From: Haloferax marisrubri | GTDB taxonomy: Archaea > Halobacteriota > Halobacteria > Halobacteriales > Haloferacaceae | NCBI RefSeq assembly: GCF_001469875.2 | Contig: NZ_LOPW02000022.1 | Span: 197,829 to 261,828 of the forward strand | Direction: 5' to 3' | Length of the DNA: 64,000 nucleotides | In this document: positions 36,600 to 58,035 of the stretch, piece after piece | Layout of the letters: every line of letters begins with the position of its first letter | Numbering within the stretch: position 1 is the stretch's first letter | Position numbers and translations under genes: made by a program | Notes under the pieces: generated by a model | The model's database searches: none | Told to the model about the DNA's origin: nothing | What the model saw: only the letters and a program-made list of their open reading frames with translations

Positions 36600-38018
36600 T
36601 CACATATAGTGGTAGTAATGGATATCTAGGCGGGTGTTCTGAGCTTCGGCCTCAGCAAGTATGTTCCCCACAGCATCCGAGATCCCAATCGTGACTGGAA
36701 GCTTCGTGCAGAAGTCAGAAGTATTCCAATCCAACTTCGTGAACGCCAACATTTCACGGCACACCTTCTGCGGAGCAGAATCGCTTACCTCTGGGTCTGG
36801 CTTAACTACGATTGGCTCCGGGATATTCGAAGCCGGATACGTCGACAGTGCGGGGATGTATCCCTTCGTATATAGGTAATGCACCTCGTTGTCAGGGGCA
36901 GAGAGCATAGTGCCTCGCAGCGGCGGGTAGATCCCGGAACTCAAGGCCCGAACTGAGTGTCGTTCTCGCACCGTGACGAAGTCCATCAACTCGATGTTCC
37001 CCGCACCTTTGATGAAACCCTCACGCTCGTCTTCCCAGAATTCCGACCGCTTGTGAAGAACCAACCGTCGTGGTTCTGTCTTCTTGTGGCTACGGTAATG
37101 CCTGAGAATTTTTTTGACTAGCTGTTCGGCGTCTTCCTCTGCGAGATGATTGTTTCCTGGGCCGTGTTTTTCTCCTTCGACGGGATCGCCTCGAAGGATG
37201 AAGTTCTCACCAGTCTCAAGGAATACTTGAGCCATCGCAGTCCGAGTTCGTGATTTGTCCCCACCTCGTTCCTTGTAGAAGGAAATTCCAGCAAAGCACG
37301 TCCCATCCTCCAACTCGGTTAGCTTCCAAGGATGGCCTCGTTGCGCCTTGTAGAGTGTCCCGACCGCGATGTTCCATGCTATCTCGGATTTGTCTTGGAC
37401 ATCCTCACCGCGGAGGGTCTTCGGTTGTATCAGCTGCGTCGGCAACCCGACTTCCATCCCTAGTAGCTTGATCCGGTTGTGGAAGTCACTGGTTTCTGAC
37501 TGCATCCGGGCATGGTCTTGGTGGGATGGAGTGCAGGCGTCCCACATCGCTTCAGGAATCGCGATGAACACGACGTCAGGCGGCGTCTCCGTGGCGTACA
37601 GGACTTCGAGGTTGATCTTGATTATCTCGACGGCCTCTTCCAATCGGTCTTCCCGGCTGCGGATCTGTTTCAAGTCCCGTATCTCGCCTCGAGTAATCGT
37701 CTGCCGCCACCGCTTCTGCGTGTTGAACGTGAAGTTCAGCGGTGACCGTTCACCGAGGCCAGGGAACGGAGGTTTCCACCGCTTCGACTGGTCTTCGTCC
37801 GCGGTGATCGCCAGCTCCATGTCGCTAAACAGTTTCTCAAGGCCGCCGAGAGACCGACCGGACCCGATGTACCCGATGTTGATAACCTGGTGCTCGGATT
37901 TGCCGGACGGTGTTCTCGGCCCGTATTTCATCAGCCCAACTCGGGGATCGGTAGCTTCCTCGCTGTCGGCGAACATCAAGCCGGGTTCGTCGAGAACCTC
38001 AGCGGTGAAACCGGTCAT
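36600..38018 (-). CDS. Short prokaryotic Argonaute (MID-PIWI, catalytically inactive type)
   Basis: From ATG 38018 the gene encodes 472 residues, the size of short pAgos. The start contains DPRVGLMKYGP and INIGYIGSG. The MID domain shows DVVFIAIPEAMWD and DFHNRIKLLGMEVGLPTQLI, the usual region for 5'-phosphate binding. The PIWI domain shows GHPWKLTELEDGTCFAGISF, RRLVLHKRSEFWEDEREGF and the conserved C-terminus LDWNTSDFCTKLPVTIGISD. The strand where active Argonautes carry the first catalytic Asp reads GISFY, with no Asp, so slicing is not expected. It overlaps the nuclease-APAZ gene by 4 bases (ATGA). The pair should form a guide-directed sensor with a nuclease effector. Confidence 0.87.
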   Translation of the reverse strand: MTGFTAEVLDEPGLMFADSEEATDPRVGLMKYGPRTPSGKSEHQVINIGYIGSGRSLGGLEKLFSDMELAITADEDQSKRWKPPFPGLGERSPLNFTFNTQKRWRQTITRGEIRDLKQIRSREDRLEEAVEIIKINLEVLYATETPPDVVFIAIPEAMWDACTPSHQDHARMQSETSDFHNRIKLLGMEVGLPTQLIQPKTLRGEDVQDKSEIAWNIAVGTLYKAQRGHPWKLTELEDGTCFAGISFYKERGGDKSRTRTAMAQVFLETGENFILRGDPVEGEKHGPGNNHLAEEDAEQLVKKILRHYRSHKKTEPRRLVLHKRSEFWEDEREGFIKGAGNIELMDFVTVRERHSVRALSSGIYPPLRGTMLSAPDNEVHYLYTKGYIPALSTYPASNIPEPIVVKPDPEVSDSAPQKVCREMLAFTKLDWNTSDFCTKLPVTIGISDAVGNILAEAEAQNTRLDIHYYHYM

Positions 38019-39418
38019 TGGAACTCCCCCAGCCACTTGTTCTGCATACTGCCGTCCCGTTCGTCGGTGTCTTGGGGTGGTCTTTTGTTGACTTCGAGCA
38101 TCACGGGTTCTGTCCCGATGTCCAGATCGTCCTGTTTGGGGTCGCTGTAGTCCAGGATTTTCCACCAGTGGTTGATCCGGCTCCGTGTTTTCCGGTTGTT
38201 CCCGTGTCGGCTAGGGCTGAACCTGTCGTGTAACGGTTTGGCTTGTTCCCCGGTGATCCGGTTTTCTTTCCCGTTGGTGGTGAACAGGATAGCTGGTTTC
38301 AGGGTGAGGAAGTACTGTCCCGAGTATTCGAGGATGCCGATACGGAGTGAGTGGTGGCGGAAGAAGGGTGATTCGGCCTCATCGTAGTGTTTTGTGACCT
38401 GTCGCCCCTCTTCTTTCCGGACCTCCGCTTCGGGGTCTTCGTGTGGGAAGTAGAGGTGGTAGTCGCTACGATAGTTTATCGCGATGCAGCCACGGTCTTC
38501 TCCCTTGGAGAGGACAACGGCCCGGATCAGCCGTTTCCCAATATCGGCGTTCCCTTGGTCGGCTTCTACCCACGACCGGAACCCGGTCTCCTCGACCGTG
38601 TCCGGGTCAATGAACTGTTTGACCGCTCTCGGCATTTCCTCCGGCGGCAACAGGCTATACACCTTGTTCGACCTGAACCACGTCGGTACCGTGAATGGGC
38701 TTAGCTTGAATGCGACCTCTTGTGTCGCGCCCTCCACCTGGTCTCCGATATACAGCGTTTCAGGGTACTCTGTTATCTCGACGAGGTTGGTGGTCAGCTC
38801 TGACCTGTCGGTGATGGGTTCGGCTTCGCGCTGGAAGAAGTCGGGTTTGAACCGGTCGTCTTTCTCGAACTCCTCAATCTTCATCAAGAGCGAGTCGTAG
38901 TCGGCCTGGTAGACGTGGGTGTCACTCAGGAACTCCTCGAAATCGTCCATCGGATAGCTCTTAATCTTCCTTCGATGGTCGTCCGAGAGCTTGTCGTTCT
39001 CGCAGACCCGGTCGTAGAACTCCTGGATTGCCTCGTCGGTCTGCTTGGTGACGTCGAAGATCTTCCGCCACTCTTTGAAGTTCTCGAGATTCCGCCCGAA
39101 GATGGCCACGTCGAACCGTTTCTCAGGGGACCGGTCCATGTAGTGGAGAAAGTACTTCCCCATCTCCTCGAGGAATTTCTTCCCGTGACGGCGCTGGTCT
39201 GTCCACTTGAGCTCGACCCAGACCTCCCGGTCACCCCTGATCTCTGGGAGTTCGTATTTCTGGTCGACAAGCCCGCCATGGGTGGGCGATGTTTCCGTGA
39301 TGTAGTACCCCATCGCCTCCATGTACTCCTGGACCTTGTCACCGTAGATCTCCGAATTTTTCGCGAGGGCTTCGCGTTCTCCTAGGAGGTTGGTGAGTGC
39401 CACTATATTGAACCTCAC
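38015..39418 (-). CDS. PD-(D/E)XK nuclease-APAZ protein, partner of the short Argonaute (SPARDA-like effector)
   Basis: The 467-residue protein (GTG start at 39418; GTG 39403 is an alternative) has an N-terminal RecB/Mrr-like nuclease domain. Key residues are in SEIYGDKVQEYMEAMGYYI, Asp63 and the ELK of WVELKWTD (Glu69, Lys71). Residues about 190-450 fit the APAZ region that mimics Argonaute N/L1/L2 and binds the short pAgo: LEYSGQYFLTLKPAILFTTN and NHWWKILDYSD. In known SPARDA systems the complex is activated by guide/target pairing and the nuclease degrades nucleic acids in the infected cell. It is first gene of the two-gene operon. Confidence 0.82.
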   Translation of the reverse strand: MRFNIVALTNLLGEREALAKNSEIYGDKVQEYMEAMGYYITETSPTHGGLVDQKYELPEIRGDREVWVELKWTDQRRHGKKFLEEMGKYFLHYMDRSPEKRFDVAIFGRNLENFKEWRKIFDVTKQTDEAIQEFYDRVCENDKLSDDHRRKIKSYPMDDFEEFLSDTHVYQADYDSLLMKIEEFEKDDRFKPDFFQREAEPITDRSELTTNLVEITEYPETLYIGDQVEGATQEVAFKLSPFTVPTWFRSNKVYSLLPPEEMPRAVKQFIDPDTVEETGFRSWVEADQGNADIGKRLIRAVVLSKGEDRGCIAINYRSDYHLYFPHEDPEAEVRKEEGRQVTKHYDEAESPFFRHHSLRIGILEYSGQYFLTLKPAILFTTNGKENRITGEQAKPLHDRFSPSRHGNNRKTRSRINHWWKILDYSDPKQDDLDIGTEPVMLEVNKRPPQDTDERDGSMQNKWLGEFQ

Positions 39419-39434
39419 AATACAGTTCCTAAAT

Positions 39435-39449
39435 CATTTCGTCGAAATG
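39435..39449. promoter_or_regulatory. Palindrome CATTTCG-T-CGAAATG at the Argonaute operon promoter
   Basis: A perfect 7+1+7 dyad begins 17 bases upstream of the nuclease-APAZ start at 39418. It overlaps the expected core promoter, so it is a candidate operator that keeps the operon low. No obvious cognate regulator is encoded in the operon itself. Confidence 0.5.
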
Positions 39450-39564
39450 AACAGTCAATACCCGGACAGGGAACAGAATGCCCAGATGTAGTTCTGGAGT
39501 TGTACGATTCAGATTCACCTTTTTCAACACAATAATTAGATGGGCCGTTGATACTTTAGGTAGC

Positions 39565-40434
39565 ATGACCTCTACACTGAGCGTAGGGGAGGTAACTGCC
39601 CTTCTCTTGGACGAGAGATTCTACTCAAACCCTCTACGCCCGAAAACCTTCTACAAACTGCTCTACTTTGCTGACAAGGAGCTTTCTGACGTTGAGTTGG
39701 ATACAGATATCCAACATTTCTGGTACAAGTTCGGAACAATGGTGAAGACTGGAGGCTCTCCAGTCACAATAGACTGGAGTGAGGCCCCCCGAGAAGTCCG
39801 TTGCAGCCTTTCAGCTGCCCAGGTCACTCTTCCCCAAGAAGAAGAAACAAAGGCTCGTCTCGCACTCTCCCGGGCACTCAACAGGCTGTATGAACAAAAC
39901 ACGGAGGGACTGACCGATGAGATGTACGAGGACGCGCCTTACGACGTCCAGCGCCACTACCGGAGACTCGACAAACAACTCAGTGACGCTATCGACGACA
40001 AACCTGATTATCCTGAAGTAGACTCCAGCCAGGAAGCAGTCGTCGATACAGTCTTCGATATTATCGACACCTTCCCAGTCGACGACTACCCTTGGATTGA
40101 GCGGGACCTCGATCTCTGGTACTCGGTTCTAAGCGCTGAGCTCGACGCGGAAGAGTACAGGCCTCAAAAGGCCTTGAAAGTCTCTGACCTGTTCTGGACC
40201 ATCTTTTGCATCGACTTAGCCCAACGCGAAAACACGGGCCTGGCTCCGGAAGAAATTGCTGAGGAACTCGACACTCAAGATCTCGAAGGCCGACAAGACG
40301 ATATCCGGAAAGAACTCCAGCTTATCGAACGAGAACGATCCCGTCTACGCACGGACTTGGAAGAAAACGATGTAGTATCGGAGGCTGCTGATGGAGTTGC
40401 AATCGCCCTTCTCGGACTCTCAACCGCTCCTTAA
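39565..40434 (+). CDS. Panacea (DUF4065)-like protein, putative antitoxin
   Basis: This is a 289-residue protein from ATG 39565 (MTSTLSVGEVTALLL). The N-terminal half has RPKTFYKLLYFADKELSD followed by IQHFWYKFGTMVKTG, which resembles the Panacea pattern of a helix with LLY-x-AD and a later YG-type turn. Panacea proteins neutralise varied toxins in two-gene modules. The C-terminal half is acidic and helical with LAPEEIAEELDTQDLEGRQD. The next gene, a PIN protein, starts 12 bases after the stop codon. Assignment is by pattern and context. Confidence 0.5.
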   Translation: MTSTLSVGEVTALLLDERFYSNPLRPKTFYKLLYFADKELSDVELDTDIQHFWYKFGTMVKTGGSPVTIDWSEAPREVRCSLSAAQVTLPQEEETKARLALSRALNRLYEQNTEGLTDEMYEDAPYDVQRHYRRLDKQLSDAIDDKPDYPEVDSSQEAVVDTVFDIIDTFPVDDYPWIERDLDLWYSVLSAELDAEEYRPQKALKVSDLFWTIFCIDLAQRENTGLAPEEIAEELDTQDLEGRQDDIRKELQLIERERSRLRTDLEENDVVSEAADGVAIALLGLSTAP

Positions 40435-40446
40435 CTACTATTCCCT

Positions 40447-41232
40447 ATGACTCGGTACTTCGTAGACACCAACTGCTTGCTCGGACTCACTTTCCTTAAC
40501 GACCGGTGGTACCCCGACGCCAAACGTCTGTTCGACACCGACAACACAATCTATACCGGAAAGAACGCAGTCTACGAATACTGTTCAAGTACCGAACACA
40601 ACAGTCGACGGAGCGCTGACATCCGACTCGAACGGGACGAAGGGCTATACGGGGAGAAACGCGCAAAGCTCCGATTGAAGCTGCGGCAGTTCGGGAAGAA
40701 GCTACAGACCTACCGTGACGATGAGCTCAATATTGAGACGGTGGTGGACGAGTACGTCGACCGCTTCGATATGAAAGAGTCCGAGGAGAAGGAAGTCCGG
40801 CCACGGCTCCAGAAGTACTTTGAATGGCACTTCGAGAGAGAAGGAGAGATTTCCCGGCGGACTGCTCGTGGGGCCGCTAGAAAGCTGAAAGATGTCTTGA
40901 TGGAGAGGTCCATCAAACATAAAGATCTGATTGAGGCTCGCGTATATCTGGAGCCGATGCGTGACCGGGAGTACCCGGATGTCGAGAGGCGACTGAAGGA
41001 GTGGCCAGTACGAATGAGGAACAATGCCGATATCGCGCTGTTGTGCGATGCAATATTCCTGAAAGAAGAAGTTGGTGTCAGTCACTTCGTAACCGGCGAC
41101 TTCACGGATATCTACTCGAACCAAGATTGGATTCACGAGAACCTCGGATTCAGCGTGCTGTACTTGCTGGAGACTTTCGCAGGAGAAGAATCTCCGACCG
41201 CTTCACTGGATTTGTACGATCAAACAGAGTAG
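40447..41232 (+). CDS. PIN-domain-like ribonuclease, putative toxin
   Basis: The 261-residue protein begins TRYFVDTNCLLGLTFL, the strand with the first PIN Asp. It ends with NADIALLCDAIFLKEEVGVS and HFVTGDFTDIY, which supply the later acidic residues of a PIN active site. Between them lies a long basic helical insertion (residues about 60-165), making it larger than VapC toxins. PIN enzymes cleave RNA using Mg2+. The adjacent Panacea-like gene upstream is the likely control partner. Confidence 0.68.
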   Translation: MTRYFVDTNCLLGLTFLNDRWYPDAKRLFDTDNTIYTGKNAVYEYCSSTEHNSRRSADIRLERDEGLYGEKRAKLRLKLRQFGKKLQTYRDDELNIETVVDEYVDRFDMKESEEKEVRPRLQKYFEWHFEREGEISRRTARGAARKLKDVLMERSIKHKDLIEARVYLEPMRDREYPDVERRLKEWPVRMRNNADIALLCDAIFLKEEVGVSHFVTGDFTDIYSNQDWIHENLGFSVLYLLETFAGEESPTASLDLYDQTE

Positions 41233-41329: not shown

Positions 41330-43237
41330 TTATCGACATACGAGTAATATGATAGCTTGAATGATCCCAAGTGAGGATATACCTAAAAGAATTGTGAGCA
41401 CAACAGTGGCGGTACGGCGTGCAAGGGGAACAGTACTTGAGTACTGATGTGAGTCTCGTATGAGGAGTGCACTGGCTGGTATAGCGGAGAGAGCAGCACC
41501 GATGTACGGGGGAGCCGATGGGGAATATGCGACGAGTGACAAGGATGCGACGGCAAGCCAACCGAGTGCGAGGATTACGTAAAGTCGGTGAAGGTACTTG
41601 ATTGACCAAGTGACACGAGCCTGGGCGGCAGTTACGGCTGCATTTTTTTGTTCGATATGAGTGGCGTCTGTTGAGGGAGGATTTTGATGAGTGTCTGTTG
41701 GTGAGCAGAGCCATTGGAGTTCTTTCAATAAGCTTTGCGACCCACAGGCTCCGTCTTGGAGACTGGTACGGATTGTTGCGTGTATGAGCTCCTGTTCATT
41801 ATCTGCTAGTTCATATTCGTCAAGACCCGCGCGGGAGGTGTCGTATATTTTCTTGTACGTTGATCGGAAGTTGGAGATGCTTTGGTTGATATTTTTGTCT
41901 GTGTCTTTTAATTGTGCAGCCGAGATTGGGAAATAAGCAAGTAAGCCGACCGAGATAATGAAGAGAGAGAATGGTAGGGTCTGGCTGATGTTTGCCCACC
42001 GGATGATCAGAAATGTGTTGGTGATGACGGCTGCGACAAGCCCATAAATGATTGTTTTGACCTGGTTTGTAACTGACTGAGTGAGGTCTGTTAGGTCCTC
42101 TCGAAGTGCATCAACCAATTCGTACAGTTTGTCGGCTGTCTTGGTTGCTTCAGCTAATGTGTCTTGCAGTGCACCTTCTTCAAGTATATCGAAATAGGTC
42201 TCAATTTGAGTGCGATTGTTTGGAACTTCATCATACGAGTTACAACTCCGAGAAATGGCTTGCAACCAGTACTTTTGTAGGTTCTTTGTCGGAACGTTAT
42301 GGAATCCACAGATCAATTGATATGTCGCTGATAATTGGTCTGGCTGTGGTGTATACTCAGTATAATCGATAACCGATGTGAGTGGTGGATCCTGGTTTGA
42401 AATCTTGTACGTCCATTTTTGGGGATTGTGTTGCGTGGGTGGTTCATCTGACAGCGCCCTGAATGCCGTGTGTAAAAAGGTGGTGGAGAATAGGTCACGA
42501 ACTAGTTGGCTATTAAATAATAACGGGTGCTGTGACTGATTGAACCCATCGTCTGCCCAGTTATGTACGTAATTTGCCATTTCAATTATTGGATTGTTCG
42601 GTCGGGTATACTCGTCACAAACCGTGTTTACATCTGATAAAGGAGCAAGGGCAATCCAAGACGACTCGGTGAAGTCAATATCTTCGTTACCGATGAACAG
42701 CAAGTGTGGCTGTTCCGAGTCGACGTACTGATCTTCGATGTGCTCCGGGTTCGTAGATTCCAACCAATCAGTCAAGAGCTCTCTGGAGGTCCACACGTGG
42801 GGTTCAGCAGCAAGATCGTGAATAGTCTCAACAGACTCGTGGAGATGTCGCTTTGCTAACACACATTCGATATCGATGGATTCGCCGGTATGCACTGCGT
42901 TGGTGAAGTCATCAATAAGTGATGATACTCTGTCTTGGTCCTCCGAACCGCCGGAGAAAGGCTGGTATTGTACTGAATCGCCCGGAAGTCCATCTGACGA
43001 ACGGATATCAATACCAGCAGTCCCGAGTTCAAGCTCGATATTCGATCGAGTTGCTGTGACGGTACCGCCGGGAGCGAACCAAGATGGGTACACGGCACAG
43101 GTTGTGGCCAAATCTCTAAGAAATTCCTCCACTTCGGGAGTCAATTCGGATTCGGTCTCAATTCGTATGACCGCATTTGTCTCTGAATCCAGATATGATG
43201 GAGCTTCTTCGAGAAGTCTGACCGCAGTAGAATCCAT
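41330..43237 (-). CDS. Membrane protein with large N-terminal soluble domain, unknown
   Basis: The 635-residue protein has a soluble N-terminal part of about 380 residues with many conserved-looking aromatic and acidic stretches. It is followed by membrane segments at about 395-415 (IIYGLVAAVITNTFLIIRW), 422-440 (LPFSLFIISVGLLAYFPI), 545-590 and 605-630 (ATVVLTILLGISSLGIIQAI). A helical coiled region precedes the first segment. Its ATG overlaps the stop of the upstream soluble gene by one base (TAATG). The A/T-rich codon use differs from neighbours, indicating a separate origin. I do not recognise the family. Confidence 0.6.
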   Translation of the reverse strand: MDSTAVRLLEEAPSYLDSETNAVIRIETESELTPEVEEFLRDLATTCAVYPSWFAPGGTVTATRSNIELELGTAGIDIRSSDGLPGDSVQYQPFSGGSEDQDRVSSLIDDFTNAVHTGESIDIECVLAKRHLHESVETIHDLAAEPHVWTSRELLTDWLESTNPEHIEDQYVDSEQPHLLFIGNEDIDFTESSWIALAPLSDVNTVCDEYTRPNNPIIEMANYVHNWADDGFNQSQHPLLFNSQLVRDLFSTTFLHTAFRALSDEPPTQHNPQKWTYKISNQDPPLTSVIDYTEYTPQPDQLSATYQLICGFHNVPTKNLQKYWLQAISRSCNSYDEVPNNRTQIETYFDILEEGALQDTLAEATKTADKLYELVDALREDLTDLTQSVTNQVKTIIYGLVAAVITNTFLIIRWANISQTLPFSLFIISVGLLAYFPISAAQLKDTDKNINQSISNFRSTYKKIYDTSRAGLDEYELADNEQELIHATIRTSLQDGACGSQSLLKELQWLCSPTDTHQNPPSTDATHIEQKNAAVTAAQARVTWSIKYLHRLYVILALGWLAVASLSLVAYSPSAPPYIGAALSAIPASALLIRDSHQYSSTVPLARRTATVVLTILLGISSLGIIQAIILLVCR

Positions 43238-44340
43238 TATTGATTGTTCTCGTCCGCAAGGCCTGGAACATCATCGGGTGAGTCGTACTCGTCAAGATCT
43301 GGGAACAGGTCAATATCCTCGTCATCGGTTTCAAGCGCGTCGCTTTCGTTCACATGGATGATTTTAGGACGACCTTTGGTTATGATGACATGGTGTCGAC
43401 CACCGCTGTCACGGACTAAGTGGATCCCATCTCTATCTGTGATTTCTTCGATCGTGAATCCGATAACAGATTTTTCTCCGCCCGGAGTGACTGTAACTTC
43501 TAAATCAGACAAGTCAGTGTATACGTCTGGAAGTTCGTCTACAGATTGAAGCTCAGATACGTCATCTCGAGCTTGTTTCACCTCGTCTAACCGGCCTGCA
43601 TCATCCGCACTCTCATCATTGCTGTCGCCTTTCCAGAGAATTTCATTTGCCTTCAATTCTGTTTCTAACTGGGCGAATGTACTCCAATAGTTCGCATGGC
43701 TCCGTTGGTAGACTGCCGCACGGTCCTCGTTAAGATAGATCTCTTCCTCAATATCTTCGTCATCCGGTTCCCGGAGCGCCCGTGCTGGATATACCAGGCC
43801 TTTCTCCATTCGCTGCCGGACCACCTGTTCCGCTGGATCTAAGATATCATCTGCGCTCGGCCGATACGCATCCGAAAGGTGGATTTCCTGAATTACGGCG
43901 ATTCGAGTTTCATCAAGACCCTGTGATTCGAAGCGAAAAAAGAACAGTACTGCGTCCAACGCGAAATTGGTCTCAGAATATCGCGTCGCCAATGCTTCGG
44001 CAGCGTCAGCAAATGAATCGCTGGTATATACCTGTTTCAACGGGTGTTTATTGTTTTCTTGTGCATCGTCATCAGAGCCCTCACCGTTTTCAGTCACCGA
44101 TTCAAGGCTGTGAATGCGGGCTCGTGAATTCTCGGCCGTATGAAACTTCTTAGTCCTTAATCTTGACAGTGTTCCCGCTAGCCGTGACAAGATCTCGCTT
44201 TGTTCTATATCGCTCTCGGCATCAGAGACATCGACATCCTTCAATTTCGACTTATCAAGATGCACAATTTCGTCAACTGATTGATTGTCTTCCGACCCGG
44301 TGAGACAATTATATTCGGCAAATTCAGTGACTGTGACCAT
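43237..44340 (-). CDS. Soluble acidic protein paired with membrane gene, unknown
   Basis: The 367-residue acidic protein has no membrane segment. Visible parts are a central FALDAVLFFFRFESQGLDET, AVIQEIHLSDAYRPS and a C-terminal beta-rich section GFTIEEITDRDGIHLVRDSG, GRHHVIITKGRPKIIHV. Low-complexity Asp/Glu stretches lie near residues 85-100 and 340-360. It is the first gene of a two-gene operon with the membrane protein. The layout of sensor protein plus membrane protein recalls membrane-linked phage defence pairs, but I could not match it to one. Confidence 0.6.
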   Translation of the reverse strand: MVTVTEFAEYNCLTGSEDNQSVDEIVHLDKSKLKDVDVSDAESDIEQSEILSRLAGTLSRLRTKKFHTAENSRARIHSLESVTENGEGSDDDAQENNKHPLKQVYTSDSFADAAEALATRYSETNFALDAVLFFFRFESQGLDETRIAVIQEIHLSDAYRPSADDILDPAEQVVRQRMEKGLVYPARALREPDDEDIEEEIYLNEDRAAVYQRSHANYWSTFAQLETELKANEILWKGDSNDESADDAGRLDEVKQARDDVSELQSVDELPDVYTDLSDLEVTVTPGGEKSVIGFTIEEITDRDGIHLVRDSGGRHHVIITKGRPKIIHVNESDALETDDEDIDLFPDLDEYDSPDDVPGLADENNQ

Positions 44341-44509: not shown

Positions 44510-44767
44510 TTACTCCAAGTCCACTTTAGAAAGATCCCCCGCTAGATACCTCTCTCCTAGTTCGGTGATTCGGTACATGGCTTTCGTATCGTGTACCCGT
44601 TCAACTAGCCCATTCTCTGAGAGAATCCTGCACCGCTGGGAGATGTACCGATTGTTGTAGTCGATATTGAATGCAATCGTACTCGGGTTAGCAGCAATTC
44701 CCGCCTCGCTGAGTAACTCGAGTATAGCGTCGTCAGCTCGAGTCATCCAGTCGATTCGGGGTCGCAT
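44510..44767 (-). CDS. PhiH1-repressor-like winged-helix protein
   Basis: Eighty-five residues from ATG 44767: RPRIDWMTRADDAILELLSE, then IAFNIDYNNRYISQRCRILS and ITELGERYLAGDLSKVD. This is the common haloarchaeal proviral repressor form (WMT-x-ADD, then a winged helix). It is divergent from the Cas4-like/integrase operon, so it probably represses that operon and itself through the dyads between them. An upstream ATG at 44812 is less likely. Confidence 0.83.
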   Translation of the reverse strand: MRPRIDWMTRADDAILELLSEAGIAANPSTIAFNIDYNNRYISQRCRILSENGLVERVHDTKAMYRITELGERYLAGDLSKVDLE

Positions 44768-44847
44768 ATCTTGGCGGTTCCCTGACCATACGTAAAGATA
44801 CGCCGTTCTCACATCAGTAAATGCACAATAGTATTCTGGAAATTACG

Positions 44848-44859
44848 AATATGCATATT
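44848..44859. promoter_or_regulatory. Palindrome AATATGCATATT in divergent repressor/integration-operon promoter
   Basis: A perfect 12-base palindrome in an AT-rich core that can also act as the TATA element for the plus-strand operon (36-47 bases before ATG 44895). It is a candidate site for the PhiH1-type repressor. Confidence 0.45.
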
Positions 44860-44870
44860 TTTATTTCTCT

Positions 44871-44886
44871 CCCCGACGTATCGGGG
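44871..44886. promoter_or_regulatory. Inverted repeat CCCCGA-CGTA-TCGGGG before the Cas4-like gene
   Basis: A perfect 6-base-arm dyad 9-24 bases upstream of ATG 44895. It may be a repressor operator over the transcription start, or a hairpin near the 5' end of the mRNA. Confidence 0.45.
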
Positions 44887-44894
44887 TAACAGAT

Positions 44895-45995
44895 ATGAAC
44901 TCGAATTTCAGTCCGGAAGGGAACTCAGTTGTCGAATTTGTCGTCGATACCGTCGGAACAGGCCATTTCGACGACTGGCAAAATGAGCGGGAGTTCAGGG
45001 AAAACATCCGAACTGGGAAACCCTACTTCAATACCCCACCTCCGGTGAAGCCAGCGAAGCAGCACAACCCAAGTCAACTGAATCAGTGCCACCGGAAAAT
45101 CTACTACCGGCAACTCAATGCTCCGGACGAAAGAGAGAGCCCAGATGGCATCTTCTGGACTGGGACCAAGTTCGAGGAGGAGGTTGCAATGCCGTATCTC
45201 GAAGCGGTTGTCCGCGGTCAGGGATACGTGCGGAATTCCATGTGGGTAGACTATACACTGGATACGGAACACGGTGACATCCGTATTCGAGGTGAAACGG
45301 ACCCTGTAATCGTGGATTCAGAGAGTCGGCCACTACTGCTAACGGAAATCAAAACAAAACGTTCAGTCGACCATCTGACAGCGCCCAACGAACACCATGT
45401 AGCACAGCTATTCGCCTATATGGAAGGTCTCTCACGGGAGTGGGAGACTGAAGTCCGCGAAGGGCTTGTCATCTACGGCGACCGGACCAATCTATCGATC
45501 AAACCCTTCTTCATCCGGTTCGACTCGAAACGATGGGATGAGCTCGTCATCAGGTGGGCTGAATCGCACACGGAGTACAGACTCAACGAAGAATTGCCTC
45601 CCGCAGCGCCAGAATTCCCATGGGAGTGCGAATTCTGTTCTTACCGCCACCGGTGTGGACAGAGTGATGAAACCCACCACAAAGATCTCGGCCCAGATGG
45701 AATTCTTCCTGGCATCGATTATCCAGAAGAACGGATCGTCGAGTACCTGCGGGCGAATCCTAACTACAAATTGCTTCCCTCGCTGGCTACCGTGTTCCCT
45801 GACCTGACTGACGAATTTCAAGTACACGACTGGGTATGTGAGGCCTGTCCTTCGACGACCCCCTACGACTCACACCCAACTGGCCAGACAATGCAGCAGT
45901 GTCCTCACTGTCGGGAGAGAGGTGTCTGCGCCTCCCTTCAAGATCCAGAACCAGAGGTCCAGAAGTCGCTCGCGGCGGAGAGAAGTCATGACTAG
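44895..45995 (+). CDS. Cas4-like/RecB-family Fe-S exonuclease of an integrative element
   Basis: The 366-residue protein has the Cas4/RecB nuclease core: IRGETDPVIV (Asp), LLTEIKTKRS (Glu-x-Lys) and HHVAQLFAYME (QxxxY). A cysteine early in QLNQCHRKIYY and three in WECEFCSYRHRCGQ are the pattern of a 4Fe-4S cluster. An extra C-terminal zinc ribbon (CEAC...CPHC) follows. No CRISPR array or other cas gene is nearby, so it is a stand-alone nuclease of the element, perhaps acting on DNA ends during replication, recombination or integration. First gene of a four-gene overlapping operon. Confidence 0.83.
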   Translation: MNSNFSPEGNSVVEFVVDTVGTGHFDDWQNEREFRENIRTGKPYFNTPPPVKPAKQHNPSQLNQCHRKIYYRQLNAPDERESPDGIFWTGTKFEEEVAMPYLEAVVRGQGYVRNSMWVDYTLDTEHGDIRIRGETDPVIVDSESRPLLLTEIKTKRSVDHLTAPNEHHVAQLFAYMEGLSREWETEVREGLVIYGDRTNLSIKPFFIRFDSKRWDELVIRWAESHTEYRLNEELPPAAPEFPWECEFCSYRHRCGQSDETHHKDLGPDGILPGIDYPEERIVEYLRANPNYKLLPSLATVFPDLTDEFQVHDWVCEACPSTTPYDSHPTGQTMQQCPHCRERGVCASLQDPEPEVQKSLAAERSHD

Positions 45996-46494
45996 TGGAT
46001 ACGACCCCAGCCCTGTCCGCGAGTCACAGATTTGTTTGACGCTGAAGCACACTCACCACGAATCGACGAAGCGTGTAGTCGGATGGGAGATGGCGGACGC
46101 AAATACCGAGAAGATTGTTCGAATGCGTCGATTTGAGCACGACGATGACTCAGAAATCGAATCCGCCGCCTTATGCACACTTCACGCCCAGCTCGACGAA
46201 CGGCGCTACAAAAACCGAGTCATCATTTTCCCTTCCGAGTTGACCGTCTCTATGCTTCGCTCCAGATTCATCGAGTCACGAGCGCTATCATACCCGACGC
46301 TACGTGGTTTTCGATGGATCGCAATAGCGAGCCTCGCAAGGATGTACTTCGATGAGAGCTCGTTGTACGGCTGGGAGCAGCGTCTGAGTGAGTTACACAC
46401 CGGGTGTGAAGGGTCAGCGAAGCGTCTCTGGGAACTGTTCGTTGAGATAGGGAGGCTTGTGCCTGCGCGGGAGTTGTTGGGTGCCCCACTATGA
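45988..46494 (+). CDS. Unknown protein in the integration operon (168 aa)
   Basis: The start is ATG 45988, overlapping the Cas4-like gene by 8 bases; the longer frame upstream is not needed. The protein mixes strands and helices (RVVGWEMADANTEKIVRMRR, ALCTLHAQLDERRYKNRVII, FRWIAIASLARMYFDE). I do not recognise the fold or an active site. Its stop overlaps the following RHH gene start by 4 bases, so it is translated as part of the integration operon. Confidence 0.6.
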   Translation: MTSGYDPSPVRESQICLTLKHTHHESTKRVVGWEMADANTEKIVRMRRFEHDDDSEIESAALCTLHAQLDERRYKNRVIIFPSELTVSMLRSRFIESRALSYPTLRGFRWIAIASLARMYFDESSLYGWEQRLSELHTGCEGSAKRLWELFVEIGRLVPARELLGAPL

Positions 46495-47015
46495 GCGAAA
46501 CTGACTCGCCCGAGATAGTCCGACGGAAGTTCACTCTGACCAAGTCATTGGATGAACAACTCGTATCGGCAGCCGCAGAGAGCTACGGCGGAAATGTCAG
46601 TCTGTTCTTGAGACAGGCCATCTCGGATCATCAAAAGACGTTGGATGGTGATGGCCGACTAGCCTTGCAGCGTTTAGAACGGGAAGTGGGAGAGGTCCGG
46701 GAACAGGCGATTCGAATTTCGGCGGAGTCCAAGAGATTGAACGATTCCATCAAGCGGTTATTGTATCAACTGGAACAGCAGGCGAACGGGGTCGAATCGT
46801 TCCCCTCACTGGACGCCCGGATTGTTTTTGATTTGCTCGTTAACAGCGAAGATCCGCTAGGAGTGGAAGATATCATTGAGGAGTTGGGTATGAGGCCGCT
46901 TCGCGTACGGAGAGCACTTGAGGGACTCTGGGAAACCCATGCTATCCAGACGACAGATGGGGTTTCATTTGAGGTATCGTCCGGGAGTCTCGGAGCTACT
47001 GAGGACAGCCAATGA
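46491..47015 (+). CDS. Ribbon-helix-helix protein with coiled coil and C-terminal winged-helix-like region
   Basis: The 174-residue protein starts with an RHH-like segment (IVRRKFTLTKSLDEQLVSAA, GNVSLFLRQAISDHQ). A coiled coil follows (REVGEVREQAIRISAESKRL), then a C-terminal region like a small winged helix (ARIVFDLLVNSEDPLGVEDI). It is likely a DNA-binding accessory of the adjacent integrase, such as an excisionase or recombination directionality or copy-control factor (inference). Overlaps both neighbours by 4 bases. Confidence 0.65.
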   Translation: MSETDSPEIVRRKFTLTKSLDEQLVSAAAESYGGNVSLFLRQAISDHQKTLDGDGRLALQRLEREVGEVREQAIRISAESKRLNDSIKRLLYQLEQQANGVESFPSLDARIVFDLLVNSEDPLGVEDIIEELGMRPLRVRRALEGLWETHAIQTTDGVSFEVSSGSLGATEDSQ

Positions 47016-48007
47016 CCAGTGATTCTCCCACTTCAGACGATGTTGTGAACGAGTACCTCGAGCATCATGTCGGGTTGATTCTCACTGAGCAGACTGGACG
47101 GAAGTATGAGGGAGTACTCCGAGAGTACTGTCGGTTCTTAGAGTCCCACGATACGTCAGTTCTAGACGCAGATTACAGAGACGTCAACAGGTTCATTGAG
47201 GGCTGCGTTCGGAGAGGGAACCGTATCTCAACGCTAGAAAATAAGTTGAGTATTGTCAATGGGTTGTACAAATATATCCATCTCTGGAGCGACTTCGGTG
47301 ATAAGCTAGAACTCAATCCACTGCGCTTACAGCTTATCGACACGAAGCAGTACAATACGCCACCCGAAATCAAGCGAGTGGCTCTGAGCCGGAGGGAGTT
47401 GCGTCTCCTGTTCCGGGAGATCAAAGACTATCGAAATCGGCTGTTGGTGATCACTGGTGTGGAAACGGGGTTACGGAATTCCGACTTACGGACAATCCTA
47501 ATCGACGATGTGGACCTGAATCAGCGTGAGATTCGGGTACCTCATCCGAAATTTTCGAAGCCGTACACGGTCCCGATGAGCGATGAGCTAGCTGATGAGT
47601 TGAAGCTGTGGATAACAGAAGGGAGATCTGGTTACGCTATCTCTGAGTACAGCCCGTACTTGTTTCCAGGCCGTCGGTCAGAAAAGCTGGAGTCAAATAA
47701 TGCAGTAAATCAAATAATTGACCGTGCTGCGAAGAGTGCTGGAATCCAAGGAGTAATCGGTACCACAGCACTCACAGAGGCTCAGAGACGAGTCCTCAAT
47801 ACTGACAAGACAGAACGACAGTGGAAGCGCGTAACCGCCCACACACTACGGCATACATTTCTCACGTTGCTTGACGATGCAGGGGTGCCGCTACCATACC
47901 GCCAGTTGGTTGCTAATCATTCGTCCCCACAGACTACCCAACACTACACCCACTCGGAAGAAAACGCGTTCAAGGAGATCAGACGACGCTTCACTCCACC
48001 GAGGTAG
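47012..48007 (+). CDS. Tyrosine recombinase / integrase 1
   Basis: The 331-residue phage-type integrase has an N-terminal SAM-like core-binding domain (residues about 10-105). The catalytic domain carries TGVETGLRNSDLR (Arg), HTLRHTFLTLL (His-x-x-Arg), LVANHSSPQTTQHYTHSEE with the nucleophile Tyr. The long TALTEAQRRVLNTDKTERQW insert is shared with integrase 2 in this window. It closes the four-gene operon and probably integrates at a tRNA gene. Confidence 0.93.
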   Translation: MTSDSPTSDDVVNEYLEHHVGLILTEQTGRKYEGVLREYCRFLESHDTSVLDADYRDVNRFIEGCVRRGNRISTLENKLSIVNGLYKYIHLWSDFGDKLELNPLRLQLIDTKQYNTPPEIKRVALSRRELRLLFREIKDYRNRLLVITGVETGLRNSDLRTILIDDVDLNQREIRVPHPKFSKPYTVPMSDELADELKLWITEGRSGYAISEYSPYLFPGRRSEKLESNNAVNQIIDRAAKSAGIQGVIGTTALTEAQRRVLNTDKTERQWKRVTAHTLRHTFLTLLDDAGVPLPYRQLVANHSSPQTTQHYTHSEENAFKEIRRRFTPPR

Positions 48008-48188: not shown

Positions 48189-50516
48189 TTAGAGCGAGCG
48201 AACAGAGAGCCGCCGTTCGAACTCGTCAGCGGTCATGTCCTGAAGCTCTTGCTTCACGCGTTCTCGATCCGAGGCTAGACCGAACTCATCGGGTCTGGAT
48301 TCGAAGTTGAGAGTCTCAAGGATATCCACCAAGATGGACACACGTCGATCTTTCATTGACTCGTAGGTCCAGAACGAGTTGAAGTATTCGCGCAGGTCCT
48401 CTTCAATCGTTACTGTCTCGTCTCCGTCCGGTTCTTCGTGAGATTGTAGAAGTCGCTCAAGCTTCGTGCGATTAATTGGCCCCTCGTCTGCGGTGAAGTA
48501 GCGGTTCGGGTAGATGCTGGCGAAGTCTTTCGACTTCTTGTGATACTTTGGGAGTTTCTCGACGAGGGGATTATTGCTTGCGCCAATATTGTCCTTACCT
48601 CGCAGCAGTAGGAAGTTCCCGATATCGTTGATGAACTGCTGCGTGATGAACTCCGACATATTCTCTTTCAGCCGCGCTTCTTGTTCGTTAAGATTGTCAC
48701 GCTGTTCAAGATCAATGTAGTTCTGGATACTCAACGTGAGTTCGGTGTCGTCTCGGTTGAGTCGGAAGAACTCCCGTAACCATGTCGCGTCCCCCGAGCT
48801 TGAGAAGGGCTTCTGGGGGAGAACATGTTCTAGATGGAGGTTGTCAGCGTTCAGCCGCCGTTCAACATACTCGTCTTCGTTTTTGAAGTGATTGTTTGTA
48901 ATCCGCCTAAAGAGGAGTTTCGCGGTACTCGTACTCCCGAGTTTCGACTGGGCGAGACCCACAAGGAACTGTTCACCGAACAGCTCAGCGTTAGACGATC
49001 GGGTTTCGTTGATGAGATACTCTATTGATGCTGCGTATGGATCACTGACGATATCCTCACTACTTGGCGAGAGACCGAGATTGTGGACTGCCTCAATGAA
49101 GACATTCTGGAAAATGTTCGGGCGTTCGGACATCAGCAGCCGACGGAAATTAAGCTTCTCGACAGTGTCGAGAAATTGGTAAAAACGGTCAGCTTGCGAC
49201 TCCGACGACGCGTCGGTGTAGTAGTAGAGGGCTAATGTGAGTGGCCGCCACTGATCCATTTGCTGGCTGTTCAGTCGGAGGAGAATGTCTTGACACTCTT
49301 CTCGGTGTCCCGCGAGTTTTAGATCGGCGGCTTCAAGATTAGGATCGGTGATGTGTTGGTAATACTCCACAAGTTCATACGCGTCGCCCACAAATTCCTT
49401 GGCTTCGTCAAGATCGTAGAGCCGTGGTCGCACCTTGGAGTCGATTGCACGCGTGGCGAAAGCATTGGTGAGATTATTGCGTGCACCGCCGATTTGTTCG
49501 ATTGCGTCGTCAACGATACTCAAGTAGACAGAGAGGTATTCGATAATCTGGTCTTCATCCGTCGCAAATTCAACGACAATCTGTTCCCACTTCTCGTCAA
49601 CGTACTCCTCTTGATAGTCGGTATCGAAGAATGCGTTTACCACTGCGGCCCTGATACGATCAATCTCGTCGAGATCGACGCCTCTGTTGTTGAGGACCTC
49701 GAAGATCTGCATACGAAAGTCGGAGTCAGAATCTCGAATAACGTACTCACCGATGTAGTATGAGTGCTGGATATAATTGCTTACGTTCAATAGTGCTCGA
49801 ACAGCGGAATCGGCGTCATCCGCGCCGTCCACAAGCTTACTGATTCGTTCTTGGAAGAATTCGTATGTGGTCAGAAGTCTATCATGAGAACTGAATAACT
49901 TGAAGAACGCTGACCGTCTCAGGCCGCTAGTGTCCAGTTCGTTGAGTTCGTTGTCATCGATACCGAACCGATCAAGACAAGTTGAGACTTGGATTGCGTT
50001 GCTATTGTTTCCGTGAATATCGAAGTCAGCAGTGTCAGTCAGGTAGGCCACTTTCTGCTTCGGGTCTCGAATCAACGCTTGGAAGAACGCTTCGTCGTGT
50101 TTGTTCAGCGTGAGCCGAGGGGACGGGGTGGAAATAGATCCGGGATCGTAGAGGATGTGCTCAAGTTGTCGCTCGCCGCGATGTTTGAATTCGATAAGGG
50201 CGTTGTCCGAAATCTCATCGCGGTCAATCGCTTGGAGGTGCTCATTCAGGACTTTAAATAGGATGTGAACAGTCGTGAGCCGCTGTTGTCCATCGATGAC
50301 CTCGTAATCTCGCGTCTTTCCACGGACGGCAAAGTACATTGAACTGAAGAAGACATCGGAGACTTGCTTCTCGTCATTGAGTTCCGCAGTGACGAATTTT
50401 TCCACGTCTGACCAAAACTGTTTGAGTTGCTTCGTCTCCCAAGAATACGTCCGTTGATAGTCTGGTATATTGAAATTCTGATCGGTGAGAACACTCCAAA
50501 GCTTCTGTTTGTTCAT
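48189..50516 (-). CDS. GmrSD-like DUF262/DUF1524 protein (type IV restriction-like nuclease)
   Basis: About 775 residues from ATG 50516. The N-terminal DUF262 has IPDYQRTYSW and VIDGQQRLTTVHILFKVL, where the DGQQR motif is the ParB/NTPase-like catalytic loop. A long helical middle follows. The DUF1524 region has LHLEHVLPQ at about residue 561, the His-containing HNH-type nuclease motif. Fused GmrSD proteins cut modified foreign DNA; SspE/BrxU relatives act with DNA modification systems. It lies beside, and divergent from, a methylase-containing module. The 63 codons upstream of the chosen start overlap promoter DNA. Confidence 0.83.
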   Translation of the reverse strand: MNKQKLWSVLTDQNFNIPDYQRTYSWETKQLKQFWSDVEKFVTAELNDEKQVSDVFFSSMYFAVRGKTRDYEVIDGQQRLTTVHILFKVLNEHLQAIDRDEISDNALIEFKHRGERQLEHILYDPGSISTPSPRLTLNKHDEAFFQALIRDPKQKVAYLTDTADFDIHGNNSNAIQVSTCLDRFGIDDNELNELDTSGLRRSAFFKLFSSHDRLLTTYEFFQERISKLVDGADDADSAVRALLNVSNYIQHSYYIGEYVIRDSDSDFRMQIFEVLNNRGVDLDEIDRIRAAVVNAFFDTDYQEEYVDEKWEQIVVEFATDEDQIIEYLSVYLSIVDDAIEQIGGARNNLTNAFATRAIDSKVRPRLYDLDEAKEFVGDAYELVEYYQHITDPNLEAADLKLAGHREECQDILLRLNSQQMDQWRPLTLALYYYTDASSESQADRFYQFLDTVEKLNFRRLLMSERPNIFQNVFIEAVHNLGLSPSSEDIVSDPYAASIEYLINETRSSNAELFGEQFLVGLAQSKLGSTSTAKLLFRRITNNHFKNEDEYVERRLNADNLHLEHVLPQKPFSSSGDATWLREFFRLNRDDTELTLSIQNYIDLEQRDNLNEQEARLKENMSEFITQQFINDIGNFLLLRGKDNIGASNNPLVEKLPKYHKKSKDFASIYPNRYFTADEGPINRTKLERLLQSHEEPDGDETVTIEEDLREYFNSFWTYESMKDRRVSILVDILETLNFESRPDEFGLASDRERVKQELQDMTADEFERRLSVRSL

Positions 50517-50705
50517 CTCGAAGTCATCCCCCGCAGTTCGACGAATTACGCGGTCGTAAGAGACGTCTTCGTCAATCTCGAGAATATCGTCACCGTAGTT
50601 TATATATCTCGAATATAAGTTTGCGTGATTTTCTGTCACATAACCGTCGTCATCTGCACGACATTTAGTGCTACCGACCACACGAACATGAGACGGTGGT
50701 AGCAT

Positions 50706-51151: not shown

Positions 51152-51280
51152 ATGCCAACAATCAAAGTCAACGACTGGACGAAAGACCAACTTGAAGACA
51201 TCAAAGACGAGGAAGACCACTCCTCGTTCGACTCGGTCATCAAATCGCTCCTCAAGGAACGCCGGAGCAACGATCAATGA
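51152..51280 (+). CDS. Small RHH-like protein (42 aa), first gene of the DUF499 operon
   Basis: The 42-codon frame from ATG 51152 reads MPTIKVNDWTKDQLEDIKDE and ends LKERRSNDQ. It starts with a beta-strand-like TIKVN and continues with two helices, the layout of minimal haloarchaeal ribbon-helix-helix proteins. Its stop overlaps the ATPase start by 4 bases (ATGA), which supports it as a real gene. It may autoregulate the defence operon (inference). Confidence 0.6.
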   Translation: MPTIKVNDWTKDQLEDIKDEEDHSSFDSVIKSLLKERRSNDQ

Positions 51281-54200
51281 GTAAACAACAGACCTACCCA
51301 ACAGTATTCGACGCCTGCAAGCCTCGAGACGACGTCCTCGAAGGCGAACTCGGAGAAGATCAGTTCGCTGCAAACCTCGCCTCTGTCGCATTCGACGAAG
51401 ATAGCGCTGCTTCAGTCTATCGCGACCCGTCGACCTTCTTTGACAGCACCTATCCCACAGAAGGGCTTGAGGAACTACTCACCACACTCACCAGCCGCTT
51501 CCTCTACACCACCGGACGCGACCCAGAATACAAAGCTAGCATCCTCTGTCTTGACACGACCTTCGGTGGTGGGAAAACTCACGACCTCATCGCGTCCTAC
51601 CATCTCGCAAAACACCCGGCGGGTATCTCCGACCTCCACCGCCATCTTGCAGACCCAGACCTAGCAGATGCCTACGAGCACGCCGTCACCGACGGTCTTT
51701 CTCCCCGAACCGCAGTGTTCGTTGGTGGCTACGTTGACGCGCAGAACGCGAAGTGTAGCAACGACCCTGACGCCCCCGAAACTAACACGATGTGGGGCGA
51801 AATCGCCTACCAGTTGTACGGACACGAAGGGTACGAACAAATCCGTGAAAAGTACGACGAAACAGGAAGCTCTCCCGGTGAGAACACGCTTCAGGACCTG
51901 TTCGCACTCTCCGACGACCCAGTCCTCATCCTAATCGACGAACTGGCACAGTACCTCGAGGACGCATCCAGTGTCAGCGTCACCGATACGACCCTCAGTA
52001 ACCAAACTCTGAGCTTCGTCAAATCGCTGCTGGAGACGGCTTCAAGCACCCCACACGTCAACATCGTCTACAGTATCGCCGACACTGCGTTCACCGATGA
52101 AGCCGAAACCATCCGGCGAGAAATCAAAGAACTGGATTCCATCGAACAACGGCAGCGTCGCACCATCACCCCGACAGGCTCGTCAGAAGTCAGCTCAGTC
52201 CTCCAACACAGGCTTTTCGACGAGATAGACCAGGAGGCATCAAAGAACGTCGCCGACGCCTACTACGAATACTACCGTGACGTAGACCGAGGCCTCCCGC
52301 AAAACGTTCAGGAACCCGCCTACCGTGACCGGTTGGAATCGGACTACCCCCTTCACCCATCGATCGTCGATACTCTCACGCAGAAAATCGACTCCATCCA
52401 AGACTTCCAGAAAACTCGTGACGCGCTTCGCCTCCTCGCACGAGGCATCTACTACCTCTGGGAGAACGGGTCGAAGAACCAAGACCGGCACTTCCTCCGC
52501 CTCTACGATCTCACGCCGGCAGATGACGCTCCGAGTGGGAGTATTCGGACAAAGCTCAGTGACTCACTGTTCGAAGCAGTTGACCTCAGCGCAGCTGTCT
52601 CTGCTGACATCTATTCAAGTGACGGCACCGCGCACGGACAGCGAGAGGACGGACGGTGGCTCGACAAAGACCTCCCGGCTATCGGCTCCCACATCACCAT
52701 CGTAACACTGTGGAATAGCCTCGCAGTCGGTGAACGGGCAATCGGGCTAACCCGCGACGAACTCTACGAAGCGTTAGCCCATCCCGGAATTAGTTTCGAC
52801 CACTACGATTCCGCCCTGAAGAACCTGACCGGGAATGATCCTCAGTCTGGGTGTTACTACCTCTACGACCGCGACCGCCTCAAGTTCAAATCCGAAGCCA
52901 AGCTACTCTACATTATCGACCAGTACACCCGCAACACGCCGCGGAAAGAGGCGAAAGACCGATTCGAAGGGCGGCTCCGCCGAGAAATCGGAACCGGAGG
53001 TCTCCAGACTGTCCCTACAACCAACCCAGACGACTCGTTCCCTGAAGAGCCCGCAGACGTCAGCGACAACGCTGACCAACCAACACTCGTCATCCCTCAC
53101 TTCGATTCAGTCACTGTGTCGGACGGGGGTGAAGAGATACCGAGCAAAATCAACACGCTGTACAACAAGACCGCCAGCAGTCACGGCGCTCCGACGCAGA
53201 CGCGGAAGTACAAGAACTACGTACTCTTCCTCGTCCCGGACGCTGAACTCGTATCCACCGGCATCGAAAAAGCACGGCGGATGGAAGGGATTGAGCGGTT
53301 GCTGAACGATTCCGAAAAGAGCGCCGAACTCACCGACGATCAGTTCGAGGACCTCCGAGAGCGACGTAAAACTCACCGCGGTCTTCTCGGTGAACAGGTG
53401 CGGAACGTCTATCGGCACCTGTTCTACCCCGACCGAGGCGGCCTCGAGCATGTCGCTATCACAGCGGTCGATGCGAATGGCGACTCCTCATTCGTGAAAG
53501 CGGTTGAGGCTACGCTCGACGACCGCATCCTCCGAGACGACAGTGACGCTCGTGGTGAGGTCTGGTTCAAGCAGCGACTCTGGCAGTCAGCGAAGAACCG
53601 GATGTCGACCCAACAGCTGAAAGAACAGTTCGCCAAGAAGCCGGGTCTTCCGTTCCTCTTCAGCACGAAGCCCCTCCGGAAGACGGTCAGCCGGATGGTC
53701 ACTGAAGCCGGCTACGTCTACTGGGACAACACGACCCAGACCGCGTACTGGACGGGGAGTGAGGAACCAGATAACTGGACTCACGACGGCGCCCTCACGG
53801 ACTCGGAAGACGTGAAAACATCCATCAAAACAAACGATGTCCGAATCGGGGACGACTATTACCTGTACAAAGACATCGAGTCCCTCGTCGACCAGGAATC
53901 GATAACCCCGCCCACCACCGGCACCGATGACGAGACCGGTGGGAGCGGTGGGACTGGTAGTACCGGCGGGACAGACGAGACCGGTGGAACGGACGATGGT
54001 ACGGGAGGTACCGACGACGGAGACACAGTAGAAACGTGGTCGCACACGTCGAACACTGCCAGTGCCAAGCGAGCGTTCAGTGAAGTCCGAGAAGAGGCAC
54101 TCGCGAAAGCAGGGAACAACGCCACTCCGACGGTCGAATCCGTATCCATCGAGGTGAGTGGTGACGAGGTGCTGAAACACGCGTTCTTCCTCGCACAGAC

Positions 54201-54519: not shown

Positions 54520-55115
54520 GCGTTCCTACTCAGCGTGACCAAGAAGCACAGGCGTTTGCATTCGGGTCCAGCGTGTACGGTGGCCGCCCAACGTTCGGCC
54601 TCACCCGTCGTGTCGAAGACGGTGACCCAGTGATTCGGCTCTACGAACTCCTCCCGAGAGAGCAAGCCGAATCCCGCCGACGTCGGCTGGAACGCGTAGG
54701 ACGACACGTCGTCATCACCCCGATCGAAGAGACGTTCCAGTCCCTCCCGGACGGAGGCACGTACACGTGGGACGACTGGGATGCTATCAAGATCGGCCAG
54801 CTCCGCGGAGCCCGACTCAACGCAGTGCTGTCCGTCGTTCGTGAAGCACTGAACGATGCAGAACAACCCCACGACCCAATCACGTCCACCGGAGAAGGCG
54901 AAGTGTTCATCTCAGAAGTCTCGGGAGTTCGCTTGTCTCTGGCCTTCCTCGGGGTGAAACAGATGCAGCGCGTCGACCGTATCCGAGCACTGGTTCGGGG
55001 TGTCTCACGAATGAGCACCGAGGAATGCTACTACTGGTACGCGAAGTGCCGGTCCCCGAGTAGCCCGAACGGCGTCCAGTCGCTACGCGTGCTTCTCACA
55101 AATCACATCGAATAA
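54516..55115 (+). CDS. Small conserved protein between DUF499 ATPase and DUF1156 methylase (199 aa)
   Basis: The 199-residue soluble protein starts MSVPTQRDQEAQAFAFGSSV, has DDWDAIKIGQLRGARLNAV and VSGVRLSLAFLGVKQMQRVD, and ends ECYYWYAKCRSP. I do not recognise a catalytic motif. The position between ATPase and methylase is where DUF3780 or similar small proteins occur in related modules, so it may be an adaptor (inference). ATGA overlap with the ATPase; the methylase follows after 4 bases. Confidence 0.6.
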   Translation: MSVPTQRDQEAQAFAFGSSVYGGRPTFGLTRRVEDGDPVIRLYELLPREQAESRRRRLERVGRHVVITPIEETFQSLPDGGTYTWDDWDAIKIGQLRGARLNAVLSVVREALNDAEQPHDPITSTGEGEVFISEVSGVRLSLAFLGVKQMQRVDRIRALVRGVSRMSTEECYYWYAKCRSPSSPNGVQSLRVLLTNHIE

Positions 55116-55119
55116 CACT

Positions 55120-58014: not shown

Positions 58015-58035
58015 CCACTCCCCACGATTTTCACC

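Follow-up and report, generated by a model that had tools for sequence, protein, structure and literature searches.

In the Rex exclusion system of phage lambda the first protein, RexA, is soluble and contacts DNA, and the second, RexB, is a membrane protein with multiple helices. In Kiwa (KwaA-KwaB) a tetramer of the membrane protein KwaA is reported to carry the DNA-binding protein KwaB, and replication and late transcription are blocked (PMC12904381). Proteins of the YejK/NdpA type have gyrase, topoisomerase IV and ParB among their reported interaction partners (PMC9927451). According to PMC8565334 the P. aeruginosa protein NdpA2 changes the binding of MvaT to DNA, forms no DNA complex when present alone in a gel-shift assay, and has a role in the regulation of conjugative transfer, not in defence. 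A search of the open-licence PMC literature, a scope outside which most subscription papers and preprints lie, found no system that joins an NA37 protein to a membrane protein, and the passages of the archaeal dark-matter paper PMC4158269 that match the search contain nothing on the gene pair described here. This pair, P2 and P1 of Haloferax marisrubri, is a well-conserved and mobile module, probably an undescribed one that serves defence.

The P2-P1 gene pair and its surroundings

Both genes lie on the minus strand of the window (the whole 64,000-nucleotide stretch of DNA that was analysed). The first, at 43237..44340, encodes the 367 aa acidic soluble protein P2, a putative divergent NA37/YejK-like protein, and the second, at 41330..43237, encodes the 635 aa membrane protein P1; both calls rest on the open reading frame, its homologues and profile comparison. 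The genes overlap by one base in the junction sequence TAATG, which contains the P2 stop and the P1 start. P2 has 88 D+E residues vs 35 K+R, the GC content of the pair is 47.6% vs 68.5% in window bases 1-35000 (the island around the pair is ~45-60% GC), and GC3 is 0.47 in both genes. An earlier note, made from the sequence letters, had described a unit of two genes at these coordinates with a one-base overlap, an acidic soluble product and AT-rich codon use, and all of these features are borne out. Among 500 base shuffles of the pair region no stop-free stretch was longer than the maximum of 258 aa, and the conservation of P2 and P1 establishes both as real genes.

An alignment of P1 proteins (A1) comprises 22 sequences, near-identical, truncated and split copies having been dropped. 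On the minus strand of the window P1 consists of a soluble N-terminal domain (residues 1-340, 42218..43237) in which K129, W149, W158, W324 and C332 are invariant in A1, a predicted coiled helix (residues 341-392, 42062..42217), a first membrane hairpin TM1-loop-TM2 (residues 393-440, 41918..42061), a second hairpin TM3-TM4 (residues 546-595, 41453..41602) whose TM4 is weak in the window copy, and a C-terminal membrane helix (residues 604-634, 41336..41428). Hydropathy of the window protein places helices centred at residues 403, 432, 561 and 625, and a Halomarina rubra homologue that is 69% identical has five. The 380-residue soluble part and at least four helices claimed earlier thus resolve into a domain of ~340 aa plus a coil of ~50 aa, followed by four to five helices. 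The first hairpin is the best-conserved segment of P1 at 3.13 bits, and the values for the coil, TM3-TM4 and the N-terminal domain are 2.62, 2.02 and 1.99 bits, respectively. AlphaFold2 run on P1 plus one relative gave a pLDDT of ~36. P1 has no accepted match in Pfam or NCBIfam and none in PADLOC (2023) at E<=1; Pfam matches to MurJ, DUF2207_C, SLATT_1 and similar families were set aside as weak, below cut-offs or within membrane or coil stretches. There were no relatives of P1 or P2 among PDB sequences, and none of the pair in the viral contigs or phage records searched.

P1 is present in 30 of 391 Halobacteria genomes and the P2 profile matches 31; 29 genomes carry both, where ~2.4 would be expected by chance, and the two are adjacent in 28 of these 29. 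A same-strand partner ORF lies directly upstream of 26 of 28 P1 ORFs, with gaps of about -10 to +10 bases. In the sole non-adjacent carrier (G084) P2 and a near-complete, N-terminally shortened P1 are ~99 kb apart on one contig. In the one genome with P1 and without P2 (G064), P1 is broken into two pieces that lie apart, and the two that the P1 search left as P2-only have a P1 fragment directly 3' of P2 (G067) or a contig edge that falls inside P1 (G132). P2 homologues are 320-427 aa long. When the P1 profile was run on a wider sample of the phylum, 4 of 294 genomes matched, all from the taxonomic order to which the window belongs. The P1 search gave no match in the 14 other genomes of the same genus that it listed, yet copies ~70% identical occur both in a different genus of the family and outside the family, in one other family, and this argues for horizontal transfer of the pair. 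On haloarchaeal plasmids P1 relatives are annotated as 'hypothetical protein' in 9 of 10 records, and the tenth carries no annotation. P2 and P1 are an obligate, mobile pair, and the interpretation as a conserved unit of two genes, one of them for a membrane protein, that has spread horizontally is supported.

In six genomes of ~32 carriers (L057, L060, L063, L073, L134 and L067/L135) the pair is split, shortened or separated, which is a high rate; such frequent breakage fits a system that is costly to keep. At L136 (6044-6778) what remains of a P1 C-terminus, with 91% identity to the copy at L049, is fused to an unrelated start. The genes beside this remnant look like a helicase plus DUF1837 pair, which we take to be Hachiman-like.

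The pair had been placed inside a defence island, and this is confirmed: an archaeal Argonaute-associated nuclease (38015-39418), a GmrSD-like gene (48189-50705) and an Hma-like set (51277-61959) in the window all match defence models. Just upstream of the pair (window 44510-48007) are a winged-helix gene, a Cas4-related PD-(D/E)XK nuclease and a tyrosine integrase, which suggests an integrated element. The Argonaute-associated nuclease, a 318 aa protein and a PIN-like protein adjoin the pair in the window (36600-41232) and at two other loci: at L052 the pair is ~20% identical to that of the window though this set is common to both, and at L046 the pair is inverted relative to the set.

Across loci the neighbours of the pair recur, yet they vary from one locus to another. 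Type I restriction genes are near it in 3 loci, helicases of the HmaA/DrmD kind in 6 and BREX-type PglZ relatives in 3; several of the neighbour-gene names rest on motifs and are presumptive. Directly after P1, seven closely related loci (L067-L073) have genes for a UvrD-type helicase of ~953 aa and a protein of 862 aa, and these two are perhaps an accessory pair. On a Natronosalvus caseinilyticus plasmid (L145, 3679-18633) the annotated order is brxL, pglZ, P2, P1, pglX, a hypothetical gene and brxC, where P2-P1 and the BREX genes occupy opposite strands. With a cut-off of E<=1e-20, the 90 neighbours examined at 20 loci matched 207 PADLOC models, and a control of 97 genes taken from regions shifted along the same contigs matched 30; these are counts of overlapping models rather than of proteins, and the control regions are matched by contig and not by mobility. 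The 20 loci come from 29 that were fetched, after near-identical plasmid copies, short contigs and others lacking a control region had been left out. The top 25 models include type I methyltransferases, BREX, DrmD/HmaA and Argonaute nucleases. Homologues found mainly outside defence or mobile contexts had been named as counting against a defence role; the homologues observed lie mainly among defence genes, and the defence context of the pair is shown, as are its pairing and mobility.

Relatives of P1 and probable relatives of P2 in NA37 operons

Direct searches with P2 gave no Pfam family at E<=10, no accepted NCBIfam match and no PADLOC (2023) model at E<=1, and its matches to PHROGs were at chance level. 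In an alignment of 20 P2 proteins (A2; near-identical, truncated and split copies dropped) DUF3900, which matched 3 of the 20 members with a best value of 4e-4, was rejected, and the NA37/YejK family PF04245 matched one member weakly (E 0.047). The search of 145 Halobacteria with PF04245 gave matches in 5 genomes, one of which exceeded the cut-off.

Are these haloarchaeal NA37-like proteins a bridge between P2 and the bacterial family? In profile-profile comparisons, whose E-values are those of single comparisons, an alignment of four of them matched the P2 profile at Prob 95.1 (E 3e-8) and the same alignment matched gammaproteobacterial NA37 at Prob 80.9 (E 1.2e-5), with reversed controls at <=0.3. 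A2 matched five haloarchaeal NA37-like proteins at Prob 96.4 (E 1.1e-9; reversed control 0.9) and a broad set of 15 NA37 sequences at Prob 79.1 (E 1.6e-5). A2 gave non-significant results when the comparison was restricted to gammaproteobacterial YejK (Prob 1.1, E 0.05) or to the NA37 set from bacterial plasmids (Prob 3.5). The NA37-like conserved core would be residues 121-235 of P2 (43636..43980, minus strand), with K180, P185, Q212, W219 and E233 invariant in A2, and a second conserved stretch spans C-terminal residues 273-330 (43351..43524, minus strand). AlphaFold2 on the P2 sequence alone gave a pLDDT of ~36. With moderate confidence, these comparisons indicate that P2 is a distant relative of NA37/YejK proteins, short of a formal family member. 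The statement that neither product matches a known family stands for the direct searches of both and gives way for P2 once profiles are compared.

The haloarchaeal NA37-like proteins form a second clade (clade B). In 3 of 4 of their loci the gene directly after NA37 encodes a 564-565 aa protein whose N-terminus is soluble and whose membrane helices lie at the C-terminal end, and the NA37 copy at the fourth inspected locus is truncated. Two plasmids have the same order by their annotations, 'nucleoid-associated protein' then 'hypothetical protein'. By profile comparison P1 is homologous to this membrane partner: A1 matched the membrane proteins that follow haloarchaeal NA37 at Prob 97.4 (E 1.2e-11 over 511 columns; reversed control 2.5), and the P1 N-terminal domain alone gave an i-E of 6.4e-6 at L139. 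The link of P2 to NA37 is more credible than its own score because both halves of the pair have relatives in one neighbouring operon type. At L140 (1304-5778), near the clade B NA37 pair, an OLD-type ATPase gene lies beside a 922 aa gene, and the two may be Gabija-like.

In Acinetobacter an NA37 gene is followed by one for a 417 aa protein with C-terminal membrane helices. A search with this protein gave 8 plasmid records, in 7 of which an NA37 gene lies directly upstream; the eighth is an orphan 204 aa fragment from Cupriavidus with no NA37 neighbour within the annotated stretch. NA37 loci of Xanthomonas and P. putida have the same gene order, with the membrane protein second, and the genes near bacterial NA37 pairs include an AAA ATPase plus helicase (Methylobacter), a KAP NTPase and a NACHT protein. 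The bacterial membrane partners have a P1-like layout (soluble domain, coil, hairpin, coil, helix), and their comparison with P1 detected no homology (Prob 0.4). PADLOC gave chance-level matches for the haloarchaeal clade B and bacterial pairs, PDB sequences contained no convincing relative of the bacterial membrane partner, and E. coli genomes had no DNA match to the one bacterial pair searched. We tentatively suggest, as something short of an even chance, that NA37/YejK-type proteins repeatedly became immune modules in archaea and bacteria through a membrane partner of one layout; the window pair would then represent the archaeal branch that has diverged most within an undescribed defence family spanning both domains, one that couples the sensing of DNA topology or replication to the membrane.

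Proposed function and alternative explanations

We propose, with a probability of about one half, that P2 and P1 constitute one two-component immune module of haloarchaeal defence islands, made of an NA37-like P2 that would engage DNA or topoisomerases and a membrane-anchored P1. Formation of a complex, engagement of DNA, antiviral function and the choice of output are points that we infer, and our confidence in the mechanism is moderate. P2 would engage DNA or the topoisomerases acting on it, would recognise abnormal invading DNA (replicating or supercoiled) and would couple this recognition to P1, whose soluble domain and coil would be cytoplasmic and joined to the conserved TM hairpin and the further helices. 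As output, either the TM1-TM2 hairpin would be switched and the membrane disturbed, in the manner of RexAB, or the invading DNA would be held at the membrane, where it could be neither replicated nor transcribed, as in Kiwa. The hairpin switch is favoured because conservation in P1 concentrates in TM1-TM2. The reading as a sensor-and-effector defence pair offered in the earlier note is partly supported: it gains from a conserved, mobile, membrane-containing unit in defence islands and loses from the relation of P2 to a family known for a nucleoid protein. A match of either product to a housekeeping family would also have spoken against that reading; P1 has none, and on the P2 side the objection carries some weight because the best-known NA37/YejK member, to which P2 appears remotely related, is a chromosomal nucleoid protein.

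The conservation of TM1-TM2 exceeds the needs of a passive anchor, which makes somewhat doubtful a Kiwa-like tether, in which P1 would be a passive membrane scaffold and P2 would bind incoming DNA at the membrane and block its replication with no membrane damage. The reported KwaA tetramer with DNA-binding KwaB at the membrane (PMC12904381) is a precedent for such a tether, and the large cytoplasmic part and long coils of P1 suit a scaffold; however, A2 has no homology to nine haloarchaeal KwaB proteins (PF16162; Prob 0.3). Island neighbours may be mere passengers, and the pair could be one, an accessory of mobile elements for gene regulation or DNA maintenance. Plasmids often carry NA37 genes (YejK matches in 228 records), and transfer of the integrative element PAPI-1 is described as controlled by NdpA2 and TprA (PMC8565334). 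We nevertheless consider a passenger role unlikely in view of the dedicated membrane partner, the presence of the pair inside a BREX cluster and beside different defence systems in unrelated genomes, and the PADLOC enrichment over matched regions; that the pair has been broken repeatedly also fits an immune gene with a cost.

Tight coupling and a gene order in which the membrane protein comes second are also what a toxin-antitoxin unit would have, with the membrane toxin P1 kept inactive by P2, and broken copies often retain just part of P1. An antitoxin with the 320-427 aa of P2 would however be large, P2 is similar to a nucleoid protein and to no antitoxin family, and a split P1 is kept without P2 in G064 and a near-complete one ~99 kb from P2 in G084, so that this explanation is quite improbable.

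If the immune-module reading is true, the poorly understood NA37/YejK family gains a plausible role, and there is an example of a nucleoid-associated fold wired to the membrane. It would also add a new defence family that is missing from the libraries searched, and bacterial plasmids would supply small two-gene candidates for tests in laboratory strains, outside haloarchaea. P2-P1 is linked to a nucleoid-associated family that has no representation in the PADLOC library searched.

Comparison with known systems

Kiwa is like the pair in having two genes, one for a membrane protein and the other for a soluble protein with a presumed action on DNA. The KwaA-like gene, however, encodes 189-218 aa and comes first at the four readable haloarchaeal loci, whereas P1 has 635 aa and comes second; membership of Kiwa was rejected since neither P2 nor P1 has homology to KwaB and the membrane gene is large and downstream. 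Kiwa-like pairs with a KwaA-like gene before KwaB were seen in Halobacteria at L075, L076, L079 and L083, and the KwaB family occurs in 10 of 145 Halobacteria genomes. The CorA-like effectors of type III CRISPR (PADLOC CorA) resemble P1 in their soluble domain, long helix and TM hairpin, and 3 of 22 P1 members have weak PADLOC CorA matches (best 4.1e-5). The GMN motif, which we take to define the CorA family, is found between TM1 and TM2 in none of the 22, and P1 goes beyond the CorA-like layout in its extra helices TM3-TM5; P1 was not assigned to CorA. RexA-RexB resembles P2-P1 in layout, an analogy only, and RexB, unlike P1, lacks a large soluble domain.

P2 differs from NA37/YejK proteins in having no direct Pfam match, in being acidic and lineage-restricted, and in its obligate pairing with a membrane protein; E. 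coli yejK, unlike P2, has no such membrane-protein gene downstream. Profile comparison, both direct and via haloarchaeal NA37, nonetheless indicates that P2 has the N-terminal motif, the central core and the strand-rich C-terminal part of that family (PF04245; solved structure 9be2), with their order kept.
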